A program made the translations under genes and the position numbers. This document shows positions 23,754 through 39,476 of a stretch of DNA of 64,000 nt, in pieces. The notes beneath the pieces were generated by a model. The model saw only the letters and a list, made by a program, of their open reading frames with translations, ran no database searches and was not told the origin of the DNA. The stretch covers positions 186,001-250,000 of the forward strand of contig NZ_CP068022.1 in assembly GCF_016695175.1 (NCBI RefSeq). Reading direction: 5' to 3'. Source of the DNA: Pseudoalteromonas sp. GCY. GTDB taxonomy: Bacteria; Pseudomonadota; Gammaproteobacteria; Enterobacterales; Alteromonadaceae. The first letter of the stretch is position 1, and each line of letters opens with the position of its first letter.

Positions 23754-24791
23754 TTATATTAATTTTGAAAATTGACTTGAAGTGTAACCCGTTTGCTTTT
23801 TAAAAACACTGTTAAACGAGGATTTTGAGTTAAACCCAGCGTTCATTGCGAGCACTAACAAGTTGGGCGTTGATTGCTTTTCGCGTTGTAGTTGCTGTTT
23901 TACCTCATCGACCCGCAGGCTATTGATATACTCATTAAAGTTGTAACCACCACAAGTATTGATGGCCCATGAGATATCCTTTACCCCAATTCCAATAACC
24001 TCAGCAACATCGTGGATCGTCAGGCGTGGCTGGCGATATAAATAGTGCTGCATAATCGTGTTATGAATTGCATTGAATATCTCGGTTGGATCTTCTGACT
24101 GTTTATCCACCTCATTGAACGTTATTTCTTGAGCTTGGGTTATGGAATCTTCGAGGTGTGGTTGGTTATGTACTTTGGCAACTAGGTAAAGATTAATTGC
24201 AAGTAACCAAACTAAGTCAATAAAATACCAGAGTGCTTTAGTGCTGATGTCGTTGTATGTTTGCATATTGAGTCTAACCAAATCCACCAGAGCAAAGATC
24301 ACAAACAAGACAACCGTTGTTCTGATCCACTGTAAATCGCGCGTATTGACGTCCGCTCTGATCTCCGCGGATGCTCGCTGGTAAAGACCAATAAGTTGCA
24401 CCGTAAAAGCAAAATAAATCAACTGACTGACAGTACCAAGCGCAATCACAAGCTGGGTGTATTCAGTAAATGGAAGCGCCAGCAAAACAGGTAAGAAATG
24501 GACTAACCTTCGCTCTTGCTTATGTTGATTGGCATTAAGTAGATTTTTAAACAGAAAATAGACTAAAGGCCCAGTAGCTAGGGTAAATACAGGCGTGATA
24601 AGTAAATAGCTTCTAGCCCCTAACGCTTCTTCAGCAAAGTTGGTTGCCATCAGCACACATTGAAATAACAAATAAATGACGAGCATTCGTGCGCGTGGTT
24701 GATTGACAAAAATTAATATTGCGAGGAAATAAGCCCCAAGAGAGACGATTTGGATTACGTTAACTGGAACAATGTGAAATGACTGAAGCAC
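23754..24791 (-). CDS. Membrane-bound AraC-family transcriptional regulator
   Basis: A 345-residue protein. The N-terminal ~210 residues have about seven hydrophobic helices (sensor part), and the C-terminal ~110 residues are an AraC-type double helix-turn-helix: RLTIHDVAEVIGIGVKDISWAINTCGG, FNEYINSLRVDEVKQQL, AMNAGFNSKSSFNSVFKKQTGYTSSQF. This 7TM-AraC arrangement is common in marine bacteria. It is likely to sense a ligand in the membrane and control adjacent genes, such as the S41 peptidase 131 bases downstream. The signal is unknown. Confidence 0.85.
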   Translation of the reverse strand: MLQSFHIVPVNVIQIVSLGAYFLAILIFVNQPRARMLVIYLLFQCVLMATNFAEEALGARSYLLITPVFTLATGPLVYFLFKNLLNANQHKQERRLVHFLPVLLALPFTEYTQLVIALGTVSQLIYFAFTVQLIGLYQRASAEIRADVNTRDLQWIRTTVVLFVIFALVDLVRLNMQTYNDISTKALWYFIDLVWLLAINLYLVAKVHNQPHLEDSITQAQEITFNEVDKQSEDPTEIFNAIHNTIMQHYLYRQPRLTIHDVAEVIGIGVKDISWAINTCGGYNFNEYINSLRVDEVKQQLQREKQSTPNLLVLAMNAGFNSKSSFNSVFKKQTGYTSSQFSKLI

Positions 24792-28735: not shown

Positions 28736-28993
28736 GTGAAACCCAATATCCACCCTGATTATCAACTTGTTGCCTTCCATGATACATCGGTTGATAAGTA
28801 CTTTATCGTCGGTTCAACCATTAAATCGGACAGAACCGTTGAATTAGATGGTAAGACTTACCCTTACTTCCCAATTGATGTCTCTAGCGCGTCTCACCCT
28901 TTCTACACAGGTAAACAGAAGTTGGTGGCAAGTGATGGTCGTGTTGCACAATTTAACCGCCGCTTTAAAAACCTTGCGACTAAAAAAGGATAA
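28736..28993 (+). CDS. rpmE2: 50S ribosomal protein L31, type B (zinc-free)
   Basis: An 85-residue L31 paralogue. It has the type-B pattern [48 protein letters not shown], and lacks the CxxC zinc ligands of the normal protein. Under zinc shortage it replaces L31 in the ribosome and so frees zinc. Start codon at 28736 is GTG, with RBS TTTAGGAGTCG. It is followed 5 bases later by the L36B gene. Confidence 0.93.
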
Positions 28994-28998
28994 ACCAG

Positions 28999-29136
28999 AT
29001 GAAAGTACTGAGCTCACTCAAAAGCGCCAAAAATAGACCTGGGTGCCAAGTTGTAAAAAGACGTGGTCGGGTTTATGTAATTTGTAAATCTAATCCGCGA
29101 TTTAAAGCGGTTCAAGGTAAGAAAAAGAAACGTTAA
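28999..29136 (+). CDS. rpmJ2: 50S ribosomal protein L36, type B
   Basis: A 45-residue L36 paralogue ([34 protein letters not shown]) with the lysine-rich tail KKKKR. The normal zinc ligand set is reduced: only two Cys are present. It starts 5 bases after the L31B stop and is translated with it. Identification is by the family pattern. Confidence 0.93.
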
Positions 29137-29153
29137 AAGTCAAAATAAGAAGG

Positions 29154-29180
29154 TTAAAGGTGGGCATTGCCCACCTTTAA
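29154..29180. terminator. Bidirectional rho-independent terminator
   Basis: TTAAAGGTGGGC, loop ATT, GCCCACCTTTAA: a perfect 12-bp stem between the L36B gene and the convergent metallopeptidase gene. Confidence 0.75.
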
Positions 29181-29191
29181 TAGATATAGCG

Positions 29192-31267
29192 CTAGTCTTT
29201 TGCTTCCCACAATGAGAATTCGCCTAGTTGAATTAGGCGTCCGCTAGCGCCACCAATTCCACCGCCCTCACGGGTATGCTCTAGTTCCAAGCGATACTGG
29301 GTATACGCATTTGGACTCTTGATAGCAAAGCTATAATATTCCATCGTATTAGGTAATTCGCTGAACTGTTGAGTATCTAGCGTAATCCAATTAGTGCCGT
29401 CATTTGAGCCCTGTAACTGCCAAGCATTAGGAAAGCGATGAGGGTTGTCTCCCGCTGTCGCTAATGAGTAGTATTTTGCTGTTTTAGCGCTGTCGAAGAC
29501 ATAGTTAACATGGGCCTTATCAACCTGTTTTATCGGCAACAAGTCAGGCGCATATTGTGCAAGCCAAGCAGGCGCTTCCAACACCACATTAAATTTAGAG
29601 GTAATATTTCGGTCATTGAGCTTATCTGCCCCCTCATTAAAAGGCACAAGTGCAGTTCCGTTTGTTGTTACCTGAGTGCTAGTCGGTGCAAAGTTCTGAT
29701 AGCCAAGTGGTACTGGTGGTAACTTACCGACACTTGCTAGGTAGACTTGGTACTCTTCAAATACCGCATTAATCCCACGCTGTTCGCCAAATATGGATTT
29801 AAAGGCTTTGTCTAAACTCCACGCTTCAAGCGTTTTTGCCGCCGCATTAAACTTGCGAATAAAGTCCGTGTTACGATGACTGTTTTCTACCCACTCAAAG
29901 AAGAATGCGGTTTGATCGTAAGCATCAACATTGTAGTGTTCCATCCAACGAACTCCACCACGTCTATGTTCTAAATAACCAGCATCAATTCGAATAAAGT
30001 TAGCCAGCGCTTCAAGATAGGTATGATAATCCGTGCCAGGACGATATTCTCCTTCAGCCGGAACATTATTGTATCCATGAGTCAGCTCATGCCACAGCAC
30101 GCCGATTACTTCGTTACGGATAGCCTCATCTCCAAGACCTTCTAGGTTAGCGATATGCTTAACATCGAATCTAAGCTCCATAAACTTACCTTCGCCTGCC
30201 TTTGATGCAGGCGCATCAAAGTCACCCGTGATAAAAGTAACATGCTCAAAAACGTTGATTTCGGTTACATTATTAAACAAACGCTTGGCAATCTTCAAAG
30301 AGATCTCATGAATAAGGGCATTTAGGTCTGGGACTGCACGTTCAAGCGCCAGCTGTCCGGGATGCTCAGGTAATTCCTTTTTCACTTCAATTATAGGCTC
30401 TGGAAACCCTGCCCATGGCGAGGCTGGATCCCACACACGGATAAAGTCTTGTTGAACTAATGTCGCTTCCCCTTTGTCGTTACTCGCAACCAGCGTAATG
30501 GTTTTCGGCCCTAACGCTTCAAACTTAACCAGTGGATTTTGCTCTGTACTTGTCGCAGGGGTGCCACTTTCAAAAGTCCATTGCCAATTAGTCGGGTTAA
30601 CTAACGACTCATCTCTAAAAACAATATACTCAGAGACTTCTGGTGTTGTGTTTGTGGCACTAAACGAGACGATAGGAATATCCGATACTGTTTTGATTTC
30701 GAGCTCCGCTAGTTGCGTAATATCAGCACCATAGCTATCCGTACCACCATGTACTAAATCAAACTTGAAGTAGCGATACTTTTCGCCGCTTTCGGCCAAT
30801 TCAAAATTGCGAGTCAGTCCTCGAGCAGAGAATACTTCCCCCGCTCTTGAGTCCAGCTCAACCCATTCTGATTTATCATTTGAGCCATATACAACCCACT
30901 GTTTTGGATCTCGGTTCGCTTCGTCGTTTGCTGACGTAAAGCTATATTCCCTAAGTTCAATCTCTGTCGCCGCTTTAAACACTACAGTGACGTTTGGCGC
31001 AAAAGCGAGGAATTTTGTACTCGTGTTAGCGTCGATAAGTTTGTCGACACTTTCACCTGCGGGAGAAGCCTGTACACCATCCGCTAAAATAGCCTCTATC
31101 TCAACTCCAGTATCTGAGGTGATATTACGCAATGCGCCAGAGTCTGGCTGACCGGATGATTGAGTTTGTTCAGGCTTGTCACGTTCAACAAATTCAGAAC
31201 CATCATTACAGCCAACTAGTGTCGCAGCGACGGCCATTGCCACTGCTGATAGCATTAATTTTCTCAT
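29192..31267 (-). CDS. Lipoprotein metallopeptidase of the basic-secretory-protein type, with discoidin domains
   Basis: A 691-residue lipoprotein (lipobox LVGC, Cys20). Domains in order: F5/8C (discoidin)-like at ~45-195, PKD-like beta-sandwich at ~200-275, peptidase at ~285-520 and a second discoidin-like domain at ~535-690. The peptidase holds LWHELTHGY, giving the HExxH zinc motif at 393-397, then EALANFIRIDAG and TAFFFEWVEN, as in the peptidase family of plants and bacteria (PF04450). Discoidin domains often bind glycans or surfaces. The receptor gene ends 17 bases upstream on the same strand, so they form an operon. Substrate unknown; glycoprotein is the best guess. RBS AAGGGTAACGAA precedes the ATG. 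Confidence 0.82.
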   Translation of the reverse strand: MRKLMLSAVAMAVAATLVGCNDGSEFVERDKPEQTQSSGQPDSGALRNITSDTGVEIEAILADGVQASPAGESVDKLIDANTSTKFLAFAPNVTVVFKAATEIELREYSFTSANDEANRDPKQWVVYGSNDKSEWVELDSRAGEVFSARGLTRNFELAESGEKYRYFKFDLVHGGTDSYGADITQLAELEIKTVSDIPIVSFSATNTTPEVSEYIVFRDESLVNPTNWQWTFESGTPATSTEQNPLVKFEALGPKTITLVASNDKGEATLVQQDFIRVWDPASPWAGFPEPIIEVKKELPEHPGQLALERAVPDLNALIHEISLKIAKRLFNNVTEINVFEHVTFITGDFDAPASKAGEGKFMELRFDVKHIANLEGLGDEAIRNEVIGVLWHELTHGYNNVPAEGEYRPGTDYHTYLEALANFIRIDAGYLEHRRGGVRWMEHYNVDAYDQTAFFFEWVENSHRNTDFIRKFNAAAKTLEAWSLDKAFKSIFGEQRGINAVFEEYQVYLASVGKLPPVPLGYQNFAPTSTQVTTNGTALVPFNEGADKLNDRNITSKFNVVLEAPAWLAQYAPDLLPIKQVDKAHVNYVFDSAKTAKYYSLATAGDNPHRFPNAWQLQGSNDGTNWITLDTQQFSELPNTMEYYSFAIKSPNAYTQYRLELEHTREGGGIGGASGRLIQLGEFSLWEAKD

Positions 31268-31284
31268 TTCGTTACCCTTTATTA

Positions 31285-34113
31285 TTAAAATTGGTAGTTA
31301 ACTTTTAGTAAGAACTCGCGCCCGTTCGTGTCATAATTACCCGCTTTATAGAATGGGTAACTTCTAAACGAGTCGTCTTGAGGCGGCATCGCATTTAATA
31401 AGTTTTGTACCGTAAACATCACTCGCGTGTTGTCATTGATATAATGACCAATGGTTAGGTTATGCTTTATCCATGCGGGTAACTTTTCTCTTTGACCAAA
31501 ATCAGCACCGTTCCAATTTTTTCCTTTATAATTTACCTGCCATGAAATTGCGGTCTTTTCCAGTTGCCAAGTCAGGTTAAAAGACGCCATATCTTTGAAG
31601 TTATAGTTATCTTGACTGTCTAACACGTCTTCAAGCGGATCTTCGGGACGAAGCTTTTCTTTTTTCTTTAAAACATGGCTGTAATCAAGCTTATAAATGA
31701 ACTCGCCAAGCTCTGACTCAAACGTGCCCTTCACACCAAAGTTGACGCCGCCATGCTGCCTTTCCGCGGCGTTTATATAACCTTCTCTGATAATGGCTGC
31801 GGTGTACGGTAACCCTTTTTTCGTGTTCCCTAACCAGTCGGTTGCCAGACCATCTTGGTCAAATCGCTGTACTCTGTCTTGCATATTGGCGCATTTAGCA
31901 GAAGACGAATCAATTAGGCCGTTTTCACACTTCCAGACATTATCAAGAATTTCGCCAGACCCAAGTCGAGTAATTTTGTCTTTTAAGACAATGTCATAAA
32001 CATCAACATTGAATGACAGCTCAGGGGAGTACTCATACACAAGACCGAACGTTAATGAATGACCAGACTCTTCTTTTAAAGTTGGATCGCCTGCCGAGAT
32101 TGTCTCAAAGTCAGCATCTAGCTTTGGCTCATTGCTATTTGTTGTGTCTAAGTCTGCACAGCTGATAGTTAATGCATCAGCATTATATTGAGCGGGATCC
32201 CCTGTGGTTTGAAAACGTAGGCAAGCATCTGCAATCACTCTGTCCGAGCCTCGTCCAAAGTTACCAGCAAACCCTTGATATACTGAACTCATGCTAGGAC
32301 CACGGAACGTTGTTCCATACGCACTTCTTAGCATCAGCGCGTCAGTGGGAGAGTATTTAAAACCAATTTGATAAGTGAATGCCCCACCAACATCAGAAAT
32401 ATCATCATAGTGGTCATAACGCAGCGCTATTTCACTAGAGATCTGTTCAGTAATAGGGATCATAAATTCTGTCGCCGCAGCATAACGGTTACGTTCACCA
32501 TCGGTGATAACACCAGTTAGACCGACAAATTCTTTATTTAGTATTCTGCTATCTGGCGTCGCTCTCGTCCCTTCTTTCATCAGCTCAATATATGCGGCAA
32601 AAGACACAAATCCAGCTGGCAATTCAAATAAATCCCCGGACAGATCTGCGGTTAGAGTTTCATTAAACGATAAGCCATCGTAGGTTGCCCAATCAGCCAT
32701 GTTATACATATTGTCTTGGGTCAGAGGCGCAAAAAAAGCTTGGTAATTTGGACGGTAAATCGGCATGCCATCAACCTCTCCCAACTTAGGTCCTTTTAGC
32801 CAGTTATTTCCTTCAACCGTGTGATGCAAGTACCTATCAGAGAAATCGTATTGTGAACGGCTGAAGCCAACGGAGTAATAGTAATCTGCTATCTCCCCTT
32901 CAAGACCAAAACTAAATGAATAAGATTTATCATCGTATACCCGACCTAAGCCATCATTTGTATATTCTGAGTCATTCACTATCCGCCACATATACTTAAC
33001 TGGAGCGCCGTAGCCACCAGCTTTATTTTTGATATCAGGATCCCAAAACATGGATCCGTGAATTGACTCTGCATGAGCAAAGAAGAATGGATTTCGTGCC
33101 CCTTTCTTTTCTTGATCGATATAAAATCCGTTAACAAAAAAGCTGTGTTCGTCGTTGATGCTGTACACCGAATTGATATACAAACTCATGGTTTCAACTT
33201 GGTTACGTAGCAAATTGTTGCCGGTTTCATCCCACCCACAGCTTAGGCCGTAATCATTGCGGCTAATAAAGTGCTGAACCGCAGTCGGGTGTGGATTGTC
33301 ATCTGTGTTGCAGTACTGCGCCGAATATTGATTTTTGAACTCGGTGTTCTCAGCCCATACGGTAATTGAACGATTGAGCTCTCGTTTATTTGTTGGGTCT
33401 GGGTTATCCCAAACACTGTCATGAAAAGGTCTGTCGGCACCAGTTAGCGCTTCTTCCGTCTTGTATTCTAGCGAGTAGTCAAACGTAAAGTCGTCTTGTT
33501 CAAAACCACCAACAAACGACAAGCCTTTTTTATCACCCGTACCATAGGTATCCTGACCGTAGAATGCTTCAACGACATGCTCGTCCATACCTTTTTTGGT
33601 AATAATATTAACTACCCCAGCCATTGCGTCAGAACCGTAGATTGCAGAGCCGCCGCCCGATTGAATATCGATGCGCTCCACCATCGCCGTTGGCAACATA
33701 TCGAGATTAACAAAATTGGTTTGGCCACCGTAAGGCATTGGGTAATAAGCCAAGCGCTTGCCATTAACAAGAATAAGTGTGTATTCAGGTCCAACGCCTA
33801 ACAGGTTTAACTCTTTGGCGCCGGGCGTATAGGAGCCAGTTTCTACTTCGCCGAGAACGGCGCCACTGGCGGCGGAAATACTACTCAGTGCATCATACAC
33901 TGTGTTAAAGCCACTTCTGACCATATCAGCGGAAGAGAGACTTTGAACATTGGTAACACCTTCAATGGCGATACGTTTAATACGAGATCCTGTCACCTCA
34001 ACACGTTCTATTTCTTCTGCTTGTTCATCTGTTGCGGCTGTTACTGAGTTAGTTGTTACCGCCGCAAGAACAGCGGCGGCAATCAGGCTATGTTTATACA
34101 TTATTGTTGTCAT
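31285..34113 (-). CDS. TonB-dependent outer-membrane receptor
   Basis: A 942-residue receptor. The signal peptide ends near SVTAA; the plug follows (IERVEVTGSRIKRIAIEGV, VNGKRLAYYPMP, ERIDIQSGGGSAIYGSDAMAGVVNIITKK), then a ~800-residue beta-barrel ending REFLLKVNYQF, with the C-terminal aromatic expected for outer-membrane insertion. It imports a ligand using TonB energy. The ligand is unknown; proximity to two secreted peptidases and LacI-type operators suggests a peptide or glycan product. Two GGAACGTTCC sites lie 20-107 bp upstream. ATG at 34113 or at 34101 could be used. Confidence 0.92.
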   Translation of the reverse strand: MTTIMYKHSLIAAAVLAAVTTNSVTAATDEQAEEIERVEVTGSRIKRIAIEGVTNVQSLSSADMVRSGFNTVYDALSSISAASGAVLGEVETGSYTPGAKELNLLGVGPEYTLILVNGKRLAYYPMPYGGQTNFVNLDMLPTAMVERIDIQSGGGSAIYGSDAMAGVVNIITKKGMDEHVVEAFYGQDTYGTGDKKGLSFVGGFEQDDFTFDYSLEYKTEEALTGADRPFHDSVWDNPDPTNKRELNRSITVWAENTEFKNQYSAQYCNTDDNPHPTAVQHFISRNDYGLSCGWDETGNNLLRNQVETMSLYINSVYSINDEHSFFVNGFYIDQEKKGARNPFFFAHAESIHGSMFWDPDIKNKAGGYGAPVKYMWRIVNDSEYTNDGLGRVYDDKSYSFSFGLEGEIADYYYSVGFSRSQYDFSDRYLHHTVEGNNWLKGPKLGEVDGMPIYRPNYQAFFAPLTQDNMYNMADWATYDGLSFNETLTADLSGDLFELPAGFVSFAAYIELMKEGTRATPDSRILNKEFVGLTGVITDGERNRYAAATEFMIPITEQISSEIALRYDHYDDISDVGGAFTYQIGFKYSPTDALMLRSAYGTTFRGPSMSSVYQGFAGNFGRGSDRVIADACLRFQTTGDPAQYNADALTISCADLDTTNSNEPKLDADFETISAGDPTLKEESGHSLTFGLVYEYSPELSFNVDVYDIVLKDKITRLGSGEILDNVWKCENGLIDSSSAKCANMQDRVQRFDQDGLATDWLGNTKKGLPYTAAIIREGYINAAERQHGGVNFGVKGTFESELGEFIYKLDYSHVLKKKEKLRPEDPLEDVLDSQDNYNFKDMASFNLTWQLEKTAISWQVNYKGKNWNGADFGQREKLPAWIKHNLTIGHYINDNTRVMFTVQNLLNAMPPQDDSFRSYPFYKAGNYDTNGREFLLKVNYQF

Positions 34114-34132
34114 AAGACCCCCATGATTAAAA

Positions 34133-34142
34133 GGAACGTTCC
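34133..34142. promoter_or_regulatory. LacI-type operator GGAACGTTCC, proximal copy
   Basis: A 10-bp perfect palindrome with the central CG of LacI-family operators, 20 bp upstream of the receptor start. It is followed by AATT, as in the second copy 77 bp further upstream. The regulator is not encoded in the window. Confidence 0.65.
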
Positions 34143-34209
34143 AATTTTATTCTTGAAATTTTTTTCACCTTTAGCAAAACCAACAAAGCATCAGGCAGAC
34201 ACTTAAAAA

Positions 34210-34219
34210 GGAACGTTCC
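34210..34219. promoter_or_regulatory. LacI-type operator GGAACGTTCC, distal copy
   Basis: Identical to the site at 34133, with the same AAAAGG and CCAATT flanks, 77 bp away. The spacing would allow cooperative binding or looping. Identity is inferred from symmetry and repetition. Confidence 0.65.
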
Positions 34220-34308
34220 AATTATGAGCAATAAAACAAGTCTGTCAACAAATTCTGTACATTTACAGCACAGTGATGACAAATTGTAACCATCTAGTTC
34301 TTGCTAGT

Positions 34309-35757
34309 TCATTGCAATTTCTTGGTATTTAGCTCACTTTGATAACGAGACCAGAGCTTATCAAGGGACTCTCCAGTAACTGATTTTATTGCATCTTCAA
34401 ATGACCAATCTTCTATTTCTACCGCAGTTTGATTAAAACGATAGGCAAAATCTGGATGAGACTCAGCGAGCCATGCGAGAAAGAAACCTGTATTTGTGTA
34501 TCCGCCAACCCAAGAATCCGACGGCTTAGGTGAACGGGTTTTATGGAATCCTGCTTGAATGCGAATGAGATCCGCCATTCCTTCAATAAATGCATGTACA
34601 TCGGGTTCAGAATAACTTCTCTCTTTTGGAAATAGCTGATATCCATGGGTAAGTTCGTGCCAGAGCACACCAAGGAGTTCATATTCCACTTGCTCATCTG
34701 GTTGTGCGGCCAGTTTTTCGGTGATGTACTTTGAGCTAAACACAATTTCCATATTTGTTTCGTCTCCAGAGCGATACGCTATTGTGTCCATCCATTTTAG
34801 CCTAAATGTGACTTGCTCAAACTCTGGCAGCTCTGCAAAGTGTTTGTACAACCTTGGGGCCAGTTGGCGAGTTACGTCATCCACCGTACTGGCTATATCA
34901 GGAAATAGCGCTTGCAGGCGTTTCGACCCTGCCGACTCAGTATCTTCAATAACCACTTTGACCTTTGGCGGCTCAAAGCCTTTCCAAGGGTGAGTTGGAT
35001 CGTATATTTTTAAATAGTTCGCACGGGTTTTAAGGTCGGAGCCATGCGCATTTTTAGTCATTAGAGTAACATCGTAGTTACCAGGCTTATCATAAACTAC
35101 TTCAACACTTTTTGTGGTTGGCAGCATTGCTTTGCCCTCAACCTTCCAATTCAGTGCTGTTGGTGAGTTTTCAGATATCGACTGCAGAGAAATTGACTCA
35201 TTAAGCTTGGCAACCGTTTTATCTGCAGTAAAGTTCGCCAGTGGTAAACTTGTTTGTGCATAGAGCGCCAGATCAGCGATTTGCAAAAAGCGGTCGCCCC
35301 ACTGCGTTTTACCTTCTTGTGCTACGGTAAAGCGCACGTACCTCGCATCCGTTGTTTTGGGTAGATCGAAAGCGAGCGTTTCACCCCGCCTTGAAAATAC
35401 GATATTGTTGCGTTTATCAGCCTCTTGCCACACCTTGCCATCTTTAGATATGGCTACAGTCCAATGCTTTGGATCTCGGGCGGGGGCATCTTGCGCTGAA
35501 GTGAGACGATACTGTCTAAGCGCTTTTACGCCTTTCAGATCAAATACAATCTCAGCGCTGGATTGCTTAGATAAGAATTTGCTTTTTAGCGACCTATCAA
35601 CAAGTTGCTCTATCCCCTCTCCTTGGGTTTGCTCCTTTACGTCACTCGTTATAGAAAATGCATCGCGTTCGGTGATGTCGTAGAGCGCATTGGTATTCGC
35701 CAACGAGGAGCCACAAAATGAAAGTAAAATTAAACTAGCTAATGAGGAGGTTTTCAT
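34309..35757 (-). CDS. Secreted metallopeptidase of the basic-secretory-protein type (paralogue)
   Basis: A 482-residue protein from ATG 35757, supported by GGGAAATTTCG and a signal peptide ending near SSLAN (~residue 21); an upstream TTG at 35781 is less likely. Order: discoidin-like (~22-170), PKD-like (~172-250), peptidase (~255-480). The zinc motif is HELTH at 367-371, then EGMADLIRIQAG and TGFFLAWLAESHP, all parallel to the larger protein at 29192. It lacks the second discoidin domain and the lipid anchor, so it is likely free in the periplasm or medium. A near-match operator (GGATCGTTCC) sits 32 bp upstream, linking it to the receptor's regulon. Confidence 0.82.
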   Translation of the reverse strand: MKTSSLASLILLSFCGSSLANTNALYDITERDAFSITSDVKEQTQGEGIEQLVDRSLKSKFLSKQSSAEIVFDLKGVKALRQYRLTSAQDAPARDPKHWTVAISKDGKVWQEADKRNNIVFSRRGETLAFDLPKTTDARYVRFTVAQEGKTQWGDRFLQIADLALYAQTSLPLANFTADKTVAKLNESISLQSISENSPTALNWKVEGKAMLPTTKSVEVVYDKPGNYDVTLMTKNAHGSDLKTRANYLKIYDPTHPWKGFEPPKVKVVIEDTESAGSKRLQALFPDIASTVDDVTRQLAPRLYKHFAELPEFEQVTFRLKWMDTIAYRSGDETNMEIVFSSKYITEKLAAQPDEQVEYELLGVLWHELTHGYQLFPKERSYSEPDVHAFIEGMADLIRIQAGFHKTRSPKPSDSWVGGYTNTGFFLAWLAESHPDFAYRFNQTAVEIEDWSFEDAIKSVTGESLDKLWSRYQSELNTKKLQ

Positions 35758-35788
35758 CGAAATTTCCCAGATTAAAAACAAACATACT

Positions 35789-35798
35789 GGATCGTTCC
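35789..35798. promoter_or_regulatory. Near-match LacI-type operator GGATCGTTCC
   Basis: One mismatch to GGAACGTTCC, with the same CCAATT right flank, 32 bp upstream of the second peptidase gene. Probably the same regulator as at 34133 and 34210. Confidence 0.5.
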
Positions 35799-36034
35799 AA
35801 TTGATAATGCAACTTCTTTTGAGCAGATTTTTACGTAATTTCTAAATGCAGAAGAGGATATCGCTATTTCACCGCTTTTGGATCTTATGAAGAGCTAACG
35901 AGCCTGAAAGATCAAGCCACGGCTCGCTAGTATTTTGTCATGCTCAACTAAAGCCAAGACAGATGAGCAAAGCCGCTGTGATAGAACAAGGAATAACCAC
36001 AGCGATAGGATAAGTTAACTATTCGAATCTCAGG

Positions 36035-36430: not shown

Positions 36431-36628
36431 AGTCCCCTTACTCTTTGCGCGCTAGTATAAAGCAATTAACGTATGAGCTAAATTCAATGCTATGAAAAAT
36501 ATGCTGATTCCGAATAGCATTCAAAAAACAGGCAGATAGCGCAACGATTCTAGCGTAAACTATACTCATAACTAATGACGTCGCGTATTTAGCAGCACAC
36601 TTTTTGAATATCAAAAATATTGAGACTT

Positions 36629-37690
36629 ATGATCCGAAAATTGTTGTTCATCTTTTTATTTTTATCGCCGATGGCCGCGCTATCTGCACAACGATTCAAC
36701 GTTCAATTTGTAAACCCCGGCTTTGCAACAAAGAATCCTACAGGGGACTTTTGGTATAACGTCAGCAACGTGATGACTGCGGCCGCTAATAACATGAATA
36801 TTTCCCTCAAAATTAGTTATGCGCAGCGCAACCATATTTTGATGAAATCGCTCGTAGATCAAGCCTTGAAAAGTGATGCTGATTACCTTGTGCTGGTTAA
36901 CGAAAAGTCGAGTGTCGTTCCCTATTTGTTAAACACCAAAGCCACCAACATTAAGATTATTTTCTTGCTCAACGGACCGACCAAAACAGAGGAAGTGGCT
37001 TTGTTAAAGGCAGGACACCAAATTATTGGCACCATTGAGCCAGACAATTTCCAAGCCGGTTTTAAATTAATGCATCAACTTGCGCGAAAAGCGCTTAGGT
37101 CCTCCAATCCATCGCAACATGTATTAGCTTTACTAGGTGACATGGCGACGACTGCGGCATTAGACCGACAAAAAGGCATGCGCGCTTATCTTGAGCACCA
37201 TACAGAGCTAGAATTAATCGCAGAGGCAAATTGTCAATGGTCTCAGAATGAAGCTTATCGCCTCACTAAAGCGTGGTTACAGCGAGATCCCGCAATCACA
37301 ACAGTTTGGGCTGCCAATGATCCTATTGCTTATGGCGCATTACTCGCTGCTAAAGAGTTAAACCGTAAGATCGTCATAGGAGGGATTAATTGGGATGAAG
37401 ATATTGCACCTAAGTTAGATGTTTCGATTGGAGGGCATGTATTGCTTGGGGCCTATACCTTAGCTCGACTAGCACAATATCATAGAGACTTCACACCGAT
37501 AGACAGCGTGACCTTGTCTATTTTCGAATCGCTGGATGACGCTCACTTACCTTTGTATCATGCCATACATGGAAACTTTCCTGAACACCTGGACTTTTTA
37601 CGTTACATTAACGATCCAGCGCAATTTACCATTACAGAACTAACTCACTCACTTAATAAAAATAACCACAATAATAATGTAAAGAATTGA
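36629..37690 (+). CDS. Periplasmic sugar-binding-type (LacI-like) protein, orphan
   Basis: A 353-residue exported protein from ATG 36629 (signal peptide to about SAQ); an upstream TTG at 36620 is less likely. The mature part has the two-lobe type-1 periplasmic binding fold: FWYNVSNVMTAAANNMNI, VDQALKSDADYLVLVNE, GDMATTAALDRQKGMRAYL and TVWAANDPIAYGALLAAKE. No permease or ATPase is adjacent, so it may feed a signal to a membrane sensor encoded elsewhere or serve a distant ABC transporter. The ligand is probably a sugar or related small molecule. Confidence 0.8.
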   Translation: MIRKLLFIFLFLSPMAALSAQRFNVQFVNPGFATKNPTGDFWYNVSNVMTAAANNMNISLKISYAQRNHILMKSLVDQALKSDADYLVLVNEKSSVVPYLLNTKATNIKIIFLLNGPTKTEEVALLKAGHQIIGTIEPDNFQAGFKLMHQLARKALRSSNPSQHVLALLGDMATTAALDRQKGMRAYLEHHTELELIAEANCQWSQNEAYRLTKAWLQRDPAITTVWAANDPIAYGALLAAKELNRKIVIGGINWDEDIAPKLDVSIGGHVLLGAYTLARLAQYHRDFTPIDSVTLSIFESLDDAHLPLYHAIHGNFPEHLDFLRYINDPAQFTITELTHSLNKNNHNNNVKN

Positions 37691-37832: not shown

Positions 37833-39476
37833 ATGAAAAACAGTAATACAGTAGTAAAACTTCTTAAGCTTTCGACCCTTAGCGCCTGCGTTTGTGCAAG
37901 CCTTTCAGTTGCTCACGCAGATACACAGCGTGTTATCGTCACGTTAAAAGACAGCGCAACACCAAATGTTCTGCCAGTGCGCTTAAATCAAGCAGAAACG
38001 GCGCAGTTTAAAGCGCAGGCTTTGTCTGAAGCTGCCTACTCCACCTTGGGTACTGCTGCAGTTAACACATTGCCAAGCATTAATGCATATGTCGCCGAAG
38101 TTTCTTCTGCGCAAATGCAACAACTACAAGCAAGCGGTAATATTGCACACGTAGAAGTTGACCCTAAACGCTATTTGCCAAGTGTAAAAACTTCAGCAAT
38201 TGATTTACTCGCTGAAACAACACCTTACGGCATTAGTATGGTGCAGGCTAACCAAGTATCTGATGGCTACAGCGGCAGCCGTAAAGTCTGTATTATGGAT
38301 ACAGGTTATACGCTAGGTCACCAAGACTTACCTAGCACAGGCGTTACTGGTAATGACGGCTACGGTAACTACGACACAGGTGTGTGGAGTAACGATGGTA
38401 ACGGCCACGGAACACATGTGGCCGGCACAATCGCCGCTTTAGGTGGTAATGGTACAGGTGTGGTCGGGGTAAATCCATCAGGGCAACTAGGTCTTCATAT
38501 TGTTAAAGTGTTTAATGACCAAGGCCGCTGGGCATATGGTTCTGATCTCATTAAAGCAATTGAACAGTGTGAGCAGGCTGGCGCCAATGTAACCAGCATG
38601 AGTTTAGGTGGCAGCGGCAGCTCTACGGCAGAACGAAGCGCATTTGAGCAGAGTTATCAGCGTGGCATGCTACATATCGCAGCCGCAGGCAACGCGGGTA
38701 ATAGCTCGTTAAGCTACCCAGCATCGTATAATGCAGTTGTATCTGTGGCGGCGGTCGATAGCTCTGAGTCAAAAGCCTCTTTCTCTCAATACAACAGCCA
38801 AGTAGAAATTGCAGGTCCGGGTGTTGGTGTAAACTCAACATGGAATAATGGCGCGTATCGCAGTATTAGTGGGACTTCAATGGCAACACCGCATGTCTCC
38901 GGTGTCGCGGCATTAGTGTGGAGCCACTTCCCGCAATGTACTGCTCAGCAAATTCGCCAAGTGTTGAATACAACAGCAAAAGATAAAGGCCAAGCAGGTC
39001 GTGATACTTCTTACGGCTATGGTATTGTGCAAGCAAAAGCGGCGGTTGATTATCTAACAAATAATGGTTGTGATACTTCAGGTGCAGTCAATGCAAACTT
39101 TAACTTCAGCGTGTCCGGCCTAACTGCGACATTTAACAACCAATCAACAGCAGGTAGTTATCAGTGGGAATTTGGTGACGGTGCAACAAGCTCACAAACT
39201 AACCCATCACACACCTACGCGAGTGCTGGTACATATCAAGTGACACTCACTGTGACAGCTTCAAATAACAGAACTGCTTCTAAGACACTGGCAGTTACCG
39301 TTAGTGATGCACCAGCTGGGTGTAATGGTATCCAAGAATGGAGTGCAACTAAGTTCTACAATACGGGCGACCGGGTTTCGTTCAAAGGCTTTGAATACCG
39401 TGCTACGTACTGGTCACAAGGCGCAAGCCCAGAGATCTACTCAAACGTTTGGACTAAAGTCGCGCAATGTAAGTAA
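37833..39476 (+). CDS. Secreted subtilisin-like serine protease with PKD and chitin-binding domains
   Basis: A 547-residue secreted protease. Order: signal peptide (to ~AHA, residue 29), inhibitor-I9 propeptide (~30-110), S8 catalytic domain (~125-410), PKD domain (~413-490) and a CBM5/12-type domain (~495-547, IQEWSATKFYNTGDRVSFKGFEY). The triad is Asp156 (CIMDTGY), His192 (GHGTHVAGT) and Ser349 (GTSMATPHVSG). The chitin-binding domain suggests it attacks protein in chitinous material such as crustacean shell. The gene is alone; the RBS is AACAGGTGAAAT. Confidence 0.93.
   Translation: MKNSNTVVKLLKLSTLSACVCASLSVAHADTQRVIVTLKDSATPNVLPVRLNQAETAQFKAQALSEAAYSTLGTAAVNTLPSINAYVAEVSSAQMQQLQASGNIAHVEVDPKRYLPSVKTSAIDLLAETTPYGISMVQANQVSDGYSGSRKVCIMDTGYTLGHQDLPSTGVTGNDGYGNYDTGVWSNDGNGHGTHVAGTIAALGGNGTGVVGVNPSGQLGLHIVKVFNDQGRWAYGSDLIKAIEQCEQAGANVTSMSLGGSGSSTAERSAFEQSYQRGMLHIAAAGNAGNSSLSYPASYNAVVSVAAVDSSESKASFSQYNSQVEIAGPGVGVNSTWNNGAYRSISGTSMATPHVSGVAALVWSHFPQCTAQQIRQVLNTTAKDKGQAGRDTSYGYGIVQAKAAVDYLTNNGCDTSGAVNANFNFSVSGLTATFNNQSTAGSYQWEFGDGATSSQTNPSHTYASAGTYQVTLTVTASNNRTASKTLAVTVSDAPAGCNGIQEWSATKFYNTGDRVSFKGFEYRATYWSQGASPEIYSNVWTKVAQCK

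Follow-up and report, generated by a model that had tools for sequence, protein, structure and literature searches.

What would a marine bacterium import through a TonB-dependent receptor encoded between two genes for secreted proteins of a mainly plant-described family? The question is raised by a 64,000-nucleotide stretch of the genome of Pseudoalteromonas sp. GCY (contig NZ_CP068022.1, positions 186,001-250,000; hereafter the window), in which three genes lie in the order BSP2 > TonB receptor > BSP1 at 29192-35757, on the minus strand throughout according to open reading frame (ORF) calls. BSP1 and BSP2 carry the basic secretory protein (BSP) domain (PF04450), which in the sources cited below appears mainly in plant defense proteins whose mechanism is unclear. 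An initial annotation of this DNA proposed surface binding, cleavage and then import of a protein or glycoprotein fragment. That model is reasonable, and the trio is conserved; the analysis reported here narrows the likely substrate to mannosylated glycoprotein, cleavage and import being steps that we infer. Quite probably, BSP1 and BSP2 are directed at mannose and, with the receptor, make up the outer arm of an alpha-mannoside regulon of LacI (ManR-like) type, in which glycopeptides are fed to the receptor.

Operators Shared with Alpha-Mannosidase and Sugar Genes

The operators shared within the trio, already noticed in the initial annotation, are three near-identical sites, O1 before BSP2 and O2 and O3 before the receptor, with TTGGAACGTTCC at 34133-34144 and 34210-34221 and TTGGAACGATCC at 35789-35800. 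Exact TTGGAACGWTCC sites number three in the 5.47-Mb genome (two replicons: C1, 1.29 Mb; C2, 4.18 Mb), and all of them are in the BSP2-receptor-BSP1 operon. When up to two mismatches to the 14-base palindrome TTGGAACGTTCCAA are allowed, 13 places are found (26 for a reversed-pattern control): three in the window, where O1-O3 are the only matches, three just upstream of fitting genes, and seven elsewhere. The fitting genes are a GH92 alpha-mannosidase > BSP3 operon, AGE > PfkB with a divergent MFS permease gene (the palindrome lying between them), and a second TonB receptor on C1 (palindrome 12-25 bp 5' of the start codon). Five of the seven remaining places are inside ORFs, and two precede genes, at 108 bp and 62 bp, that we take to be aminotransferase-like and to have the look of a sugar-type regulator, respectively; the two genes are apparently unrelated, and all seven places were treated as background. 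Six of the eight gene-upstream places thus belong to the peptidase-receptor/mannose gene set, and three of the four BSP genes of the genome (two in the window, BSP3 on C1 and BSP4 on C2) sit behind such operators.

The operator in this way links a substrate class to a receptor that has no carbohydrate-active enzyme gene beside it; a survey of marine Gammaproteobacteria states that, for receptors encoded away from such genes, genomic context is seldom of help (PMC8371827). Because the operator of the operon is common to an alpha-mannosidase and sugar catabolic set, a mannosylated glycoprotein is a better-fitting substrate than mucin, collagen or unspecified protein. General scavenging of proteins or glycoproteins (mucin, collagen, matrix proteins), with no special role for mannose and with discoidins that bind galactose-type or other glycans, would agree with the match of the PKD-like domains to collagenase PKD and with a secreted S8 subtilase bearing PKD and CBM5/12 modules 2 kb away; however, operators common to the GH92, AGE, PfkB and MFS genes, GH92 in all 41 BSP-bearing genomes among 108 of Pseudoalteromonas and GH92-BSP fusions (see below) make it unlikely.

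Just before the apparent true start codon of BSP4 stand two 3-mismatch versions of the operator (L037 9087 and 9167), and one or two 2-mismatch operators lie upstream in 14 of 18 BSP4-type Pseudoalteromonas loci scanned (L136-L152 minus L140 and L150, with L159, L174 and L176). BSP4 may, on these sites, be a weaker member of the regulon. An AraC-type gene (23754-24791) as regulator and a binding-protein-like gene (36620-37690) as partner were dropped as candidates, the window sites being O1-O3 only.

The Candidate LacI Regulator and the Cluster in Relatives

The operator recurs in relatives: 19 stretches from this and related genera hold 71 sites (up to two mismatches), compared with 0-8 sites per palindrome for 40 controls in which the half-sites were permuted; several of the stretches are close relatives of the window, and the 71 sites are for that reason interdependent. 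Thalassotalea marina (L125) shows the pattern most cleanly, with four exact 14-base sites within 21 kb that precede GH92/LacI, BSP2, the receptor and a second receptor. A LacI gene is linked to the cluster, with an operator upstream, in five stretches (L108, L109, L123, L125 and L187). The recognition helix of this cluster LacI, SKSTVSLVL, is matched by one of the seven LacI proteins of the Pseudoalteromonas sp. GCY genome (C1:692816-693838), the six others differing. Because that gene is unlinked to the operon and has no operator nearby, and similar proteins are widespread (95 of 108 genomes), we infer its role in this strain from sequence: it would be the LacI protein that acts at these operators. 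Operators per genome (one mismatch) number 3.3 with and 0.95 without GH92/BSP (reversed control, 2.0 vs. 2.1), phylogeny being uncontrolled. No such operator was found before any BSP gene in 15 Bacteroidota loci scanned, so the operator switch appears to be a gammaproteobacterial feature.

The three-gene set, for which the initial annotation suggested a search, was found in other genomes, in Pseudoalteromonas and in T. marina. Receptor orthologues (57-100% identity) are present in 16 of 108 Pseudoalteromonas genomes, this one included, and among stretches from 12 of the 16 (L095-L106) the order BSP2 > receptor > BSP1 is kept in 11, L106 having receptor > BSP1 > BSP2. In T. marina the same trio lies beside LacI, two GH92 genes, MFS, PfkB and AGE. 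Pseudoalteromonas G205 (overlapping stretches L187 and L106) has AGE, PfkB, GH92, LacI, a second receptor, a further BSP, MFS, receptor, BSP1 and BSP2, and Bowmanella (L123) has in a row LacI, two GH92, MFS, PfkB, AGE and a BSP2 relative. A family search of 147 genomes gave eight with a match, one of them (G003) in the discoidin only; no GH92 was seen in the stretch from another genome (G073, L114). Among the named loci found with the BSP alignment (see below), GH92 lies in the same stretch in two of five other gammaproteobacterial loci and in none of 28 Pseudoalteromonas loci, where the operator and co-occurrence in one genome link BSP to GH92.

Co-occurrence and Fusion of BSP and GH92

Among 108 Pseudoalteromonas genomes, GH92 is present in 45 by a strict protein search (E<=1e-100), a BSP profile match in 41 (40 over the Pfam cut-off; G207 weak and partial) and both in 40 (Fisher p 7e-23, uncorrected for phylogeny); five genomes have strict GH92 without BSP. 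G205, the sole BSP-only genome by this search, has a GH92 of another subfamily; all 41 BSP genomes therefore have GH92, and some of the 63 strict-negative genomes may likewise have other GH92 genes. Where the BSP gene is short, with an open frame of 251-279 aa that leaves no room for CBM32 beside the BSP domain, GH92 is adjacent in all 30 cases. An order-wide sample of 394 genomes gave six BSP matches (five over the cut-off) and 18 GH92 matches; the four genomes with full-length BSP (G000, G064, G530 and G562) have GH92, the two with partial or weak matches (G305 and G392) do not, and 14 of the 18 GH92 genomes are without BSP. A search with the BSP alignment yielded 72 named loci, 37 of them grouped as Bacteroidota and 34 of these with a BSP ORF called. 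In 22 of the 34, GH92 is the next same-strand gene or is in the same ORF, against a background of one GH92 in 213 ORFs lying four or more genes away. Three of the Bacteroidota ORFs are fusions, two as GH92-BSP (L160:7676-10711 and L181:6338-9400) and one as BSP-GH92 (L164:9941-13546).

The association with GH92 also bears on whether the system is directed at algal or fungal alpha-mannan, with the peptidases merely loosening wall mannoprotein and a pure oligosaccharide as imported ligand. GH92 clusters of marine Alteromonadaceae have been read as targeting alpha-mannan (PMC8371827), and the nearest solved relatives of the genome's GH92 are BT3965 and BT3130, then 7zgm. BT3965, the closest, cuts an alpha-1,4-mannosidic linkage that occurs predominantly in fungal walls (PMC5930347); BT3130 is likely alpha-1,3-specific, and 7zgm is cited in work on how plant N-glycans are broken down, in which an alpha-1,3 GH92 is described (PMC9522356, PMC5930347). 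The BSP-GH92 fusion, however, argues for peptide and mannose in one substrate, most BSP genes of the genome stand behind the operators, and no endo-mannanase was seen among the Pfam-scanned genes (no genome-wide GH76/GH99/GH125 search was made). An alpha-mannan system is accordingly judged improbable, and mannosylated protein is the one substrate class to which the bacterial data point for the BSP family.

The BSP Domain as a Predicted Zinc Metallopeptidase

By Pfam and alignment, both flanking genes encode the same discoidin-PKD-BSP architecture, as first proposed. BSP2 has F5_F8_type_C at residues 44-154, PKD at approximately 172-248 and BSP at 264-472 (123 bits), and BSP1 has F5_F8_type_C at 71-177, PKD_4 at 216-277 (26.2 bits, slightly below the cut-off of 27) and BSP at 294-506 (80.1 bits; BSP cut-off 23.8). 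The extra discoidin claimed for BSP1 matches Pfam weakly (595-643, 26.5 vs. 27.8 bits) and aligns with the C-terminal discoidin of P0032. That one protein is a lipoprotein and the other free agrees with the sequences of this strain (lipobox LVGC in BSP1, by eye; none in BSP2), but it is no fixed feature, since a simple lipobox pattern matches 8 of 32 BSP2 homologues. BSP1 falls in no NCBIfam family, and BSP2 has just one distant match, under the cut-off.

The HExxH motif and a downstream Glu (H367, E368, H371 and E392 of BSP2) do not vary in any of 17 aligned rows, BSP1 among them, or in any of the 32 rows of a larger alignment. Fold searches with the whole model returned, among the matches listed, the discoidin part only, and the BSP domain was therefore modelled separately. 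The AlphaFold2 model of the domain alone has a zincin-like fold and resembles zinc peptidases in fold comparison (Foldseek, taken alone, gave weak support), in keeping with the original placement of HELTH in a peptidase fold. No significant sequence relative of the BSP2 peptidase domain was found in the PDB; a match to FANCL was dropped (E 0.42). The BSP domain is thus predicted to be a zinc metallopeptidase, presumably a gluzincin of clan MA, and BSP1 and BSP2 would be active peptidases.

Work on plant relatives complicates this assignment. For the barley relative Hv-PR17, no cutting of casein or gelatin was reportedly detected, a result read as pointing to specific peptides or to small molecules as substrates, and PRp27 is described as not classified as a metalloprotease in MEROPS (PMC9322406); elsewhere PR17 is listed as a poorly characterized putative aminopeptidase (PMC11327054). 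These reports would agree with a BSP domain that has lost its peptidase function here and works on mannosylated ligands as a glycan-acting hydrolase or as a scaffold for binding; the zinc-site residues, unchanged in every row aligned, and the likeness of the model to zinc peptidases make this very unlikely. A broader proposal, which we advance tentatively and hold to be rather less likely than its opposite, is that the BSP family consists of glycoprotein-directed metallopeptidases needing or preferring mannosylated substrates, and that marine bacteria couple BSP to a TonB receptor for peptide-first use of glycoproteins without an endoglycosidase. If true, the preference for mannosylated substrates would account for the failure of plant PR-17 on casein and gelatin. 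The main value of the present locus is that it offers a testable substrate class for the family.

The CBM32-Like Discoidin Modules

The assignment of the discoidins to CBM32 follows from their fold and closest relatives: the nearest PDB relative, by sequence and by fold, is the CBM32 of a Neobacillus novalis GH92 (7nsn), seen with mannoimidazole. That CBM32 is attached to a mannosidase (PMC10167667), whereas here the modules are attached to peptidase-like proteins, with three ligand residues kept. For the 7nsn ligand residues E105, F122, D148 and R152, the E, D and R are found in 35 of 36 sequences and the F in 7 of 36, with no CBM32 of other specificity as a control; the discoidin modules may bind mannose. 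A search with the BSP1 discoidin region, limited to proteins of 0.55-1.75 times the query length (a range that leaves out longer GH92 proteins), returned nine proteins, eight of them BSP proteins and one lectin-like. Within the G205 mannose cluster, L106:2741-5365 (-) encodes a BSP protein of 874 aa, in which three discoidin matches and PKD matches are found.

Proposed Mechanism and Comparison with Known Systems

In the proposed mechanism, BSP1 (a lipoprotein) and BSP2 (secreted) would dock on glycoprotein mannose through their CBM32-like discoidins and, as zinc peptidases, cut the polypeptide, and mannosylated glycopeptides or oligomannosides would pass inward through the TonB-dependent receptor. 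In the periplasm, sugar and peptide would be trimmed by the GH92 alpha-mannosidase, which is under the same control, and by BSP3, a third BSP peptidase that has no CBM; mannose would enter via the MFS permease, be converted to fructose by the AGE-family enzyme and then be phosphorylated by the PfkB kinase. Without inducer, a LacI-family repressor would close the operators, of which O2 touches the -10 hexamer of the receptor promoter-like site. The sugar roles of AGE, PfkB and MFS are assigned because of their families and a Shewanella precedent (PMC2996990); the imported ligand and the cell location of each step are likewise those that the gene set would imply. The receptor alone gives no ligand reading, since its 21 NCBIfam matches are each below the respective cut-off.

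Several parts of this scheme have counterparts, including a ManR of Shewanella that is reportedly of LacI type. Both mannoside pathways that include an outer-membrane receptor (PMC2996990) and complexes that feed on glycoprotein by way of a TonB transporter (PMC3128124) have been described. The Shewanella mannoside ('Man') pathway comprises manR-I/manR-II, the outer-membrane receptor omp-Man, manP, manI and manK, so that receptor, permease, isomerase, kinase and dedicated regulators are shared with the present system; 'peptidase', however, occurs 0 times in the main text of that source (PMC2996990). A list of LacI-family regulators assigns ManR to mannose and mannosides (PMC4052901). In the Gpd complex of Capnocytophaga canimorsus, surface lipoproteins bind glycoprotein, import is of TonB type, and periplasmic exoglycosidases include alpha-mannosidases, but an endo-glucosaminidase frees the glycan there, whereas here the surface parts are peptidase-like proteins (PMC3128124). 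No endoglycosidase or PNGase was seen among the regulon genes scanned, no genome-wide search having been made. Bacteroides N-glycan and alpha-mannoside loci share with this system GH92 of the nearest solved clade, and Bacteroidota BSP often adjoins GH92 (PMC9522356, PMC5930347); BT3965 itself is in a polysaccharide utilization locus of unknown function (PMC5930347). Those loci are Sus-type, whereas here the receptor carries no SusC signature over the cut-off (TIGR04057, 14.6 vs. 46.2 bits), a Pfam scan of 17 window genes shows no SusD domain, and the operator in common is of LacI type. A Bacteroides thetaiotaomicron protein with a locus number close to that of BT3965, the GH92 nearest to the genome's own, is BT_3960, a putative calpain-like protease enriched in outer-membrane vesicles (PMC6222051).

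BSP peptidases with a TonB receptor or GH92 as a system were not found in the open-licence literature, among the best-ranked matches listed. The initial annotation knew of no well-described system of exactly this composition; this agrees with the search for the BSP part, and related loci are already partly assigned to a substrate in the receptor-bearing mannoside pathway of Shewanella. Plant PR-17/PRp27 proteins are, to our knowledge, without CBM32 and PKD modules. What they share with BSP1 and BSP2 is a secreted, HExxH-bearing domain of Pfam PF04450 (PMC9322406, PMC11327054), and the one mention of a bacterial BSP met in that literature concerns a chitin degrader's CBM5/12 protein (PMC8802321).

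Features of the Locus and Its Surroundings

The coordinates are collected in Table 1. The closest named protein, with 95% identity, is one from Pseudoalteromonas piscicida. BSP1 starts 17 bp past the receptor stop. Nine promoter-like sites were found in the region (12.4 in shuffles), the tabulated one being the best; promoter-like and terminator-like sites are no commoner in the region than in shuffles.

Table 1. Features of the BSP2-receptor-BSP1 operon and of the second receptor (window positions unless stated)
Feature	Position	Strand	Remarks
Operator O1	35787-35800	-	TTGGAACGATCCAG; just 5' of BSP2
BSP2	34309-35757	-	ATG at 35757; mechanical ORF start is TTG at 35781
BSP2 modules	signal peptide; CBM32-like discoidin ~24-170, PKD ~172-250, BSP 255-482 (residues)		Pfam, alignments, AlphaFold2 models
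BSP2 predicted zinc site	HELTH 367-371, E392 (residues)		Alignments
Promoter-like site	34221-34248	-	TTGACA-16-CATAAT; for receptor-BSP1 transcript; 11/12 consensus matches
Operator O2	34208-34221	-	TTGGAACGTTCCTT; touches -10 hexamer of the region's best promoter-like site
Operator O3	34131-34144	-	TTGGAACGTTCCTT; 5' of receptor start
TonB-dependent receptor	31285-34113	-	942 aa; Plug and TonB barrel by Pfam
BSP1	29192-31267	-	Lipoprotein; CBM32-like discoidin, PKD, BSP peptidase domain (predicted), C-terminal discoidin
Terminator-like hairpin	29154-29180	-	12 pairs; directly 3' of BSP1; consensus match (8 found vs. 6.2 in shuffles)
Second TonB receptor	L038 3580-6405 (G000:C1:533580-536405)	-	Bowmanella relative 75% identical, adjoins GH92 cluster

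Upstream of BSP2, the gene at 36620-37690 (+) encodes a Peripla_BP_4 protein resembling periplasmic sugar-binding proteins (Pfam), with no ABC transporter domain among the neighbor genes scanned, and the S8 subtilase (secreted, with PKD and a CBM5/12 module by Pfam) is encoded at 37833-39476 (+), with no operator link. Just past BSP1, at 28738-29137 (+), two small ORFs have a palindromic AT-rich site upstream; we take them to resemble L31 (type B) and L36 paralogues, possibly zinc-starvation copies.

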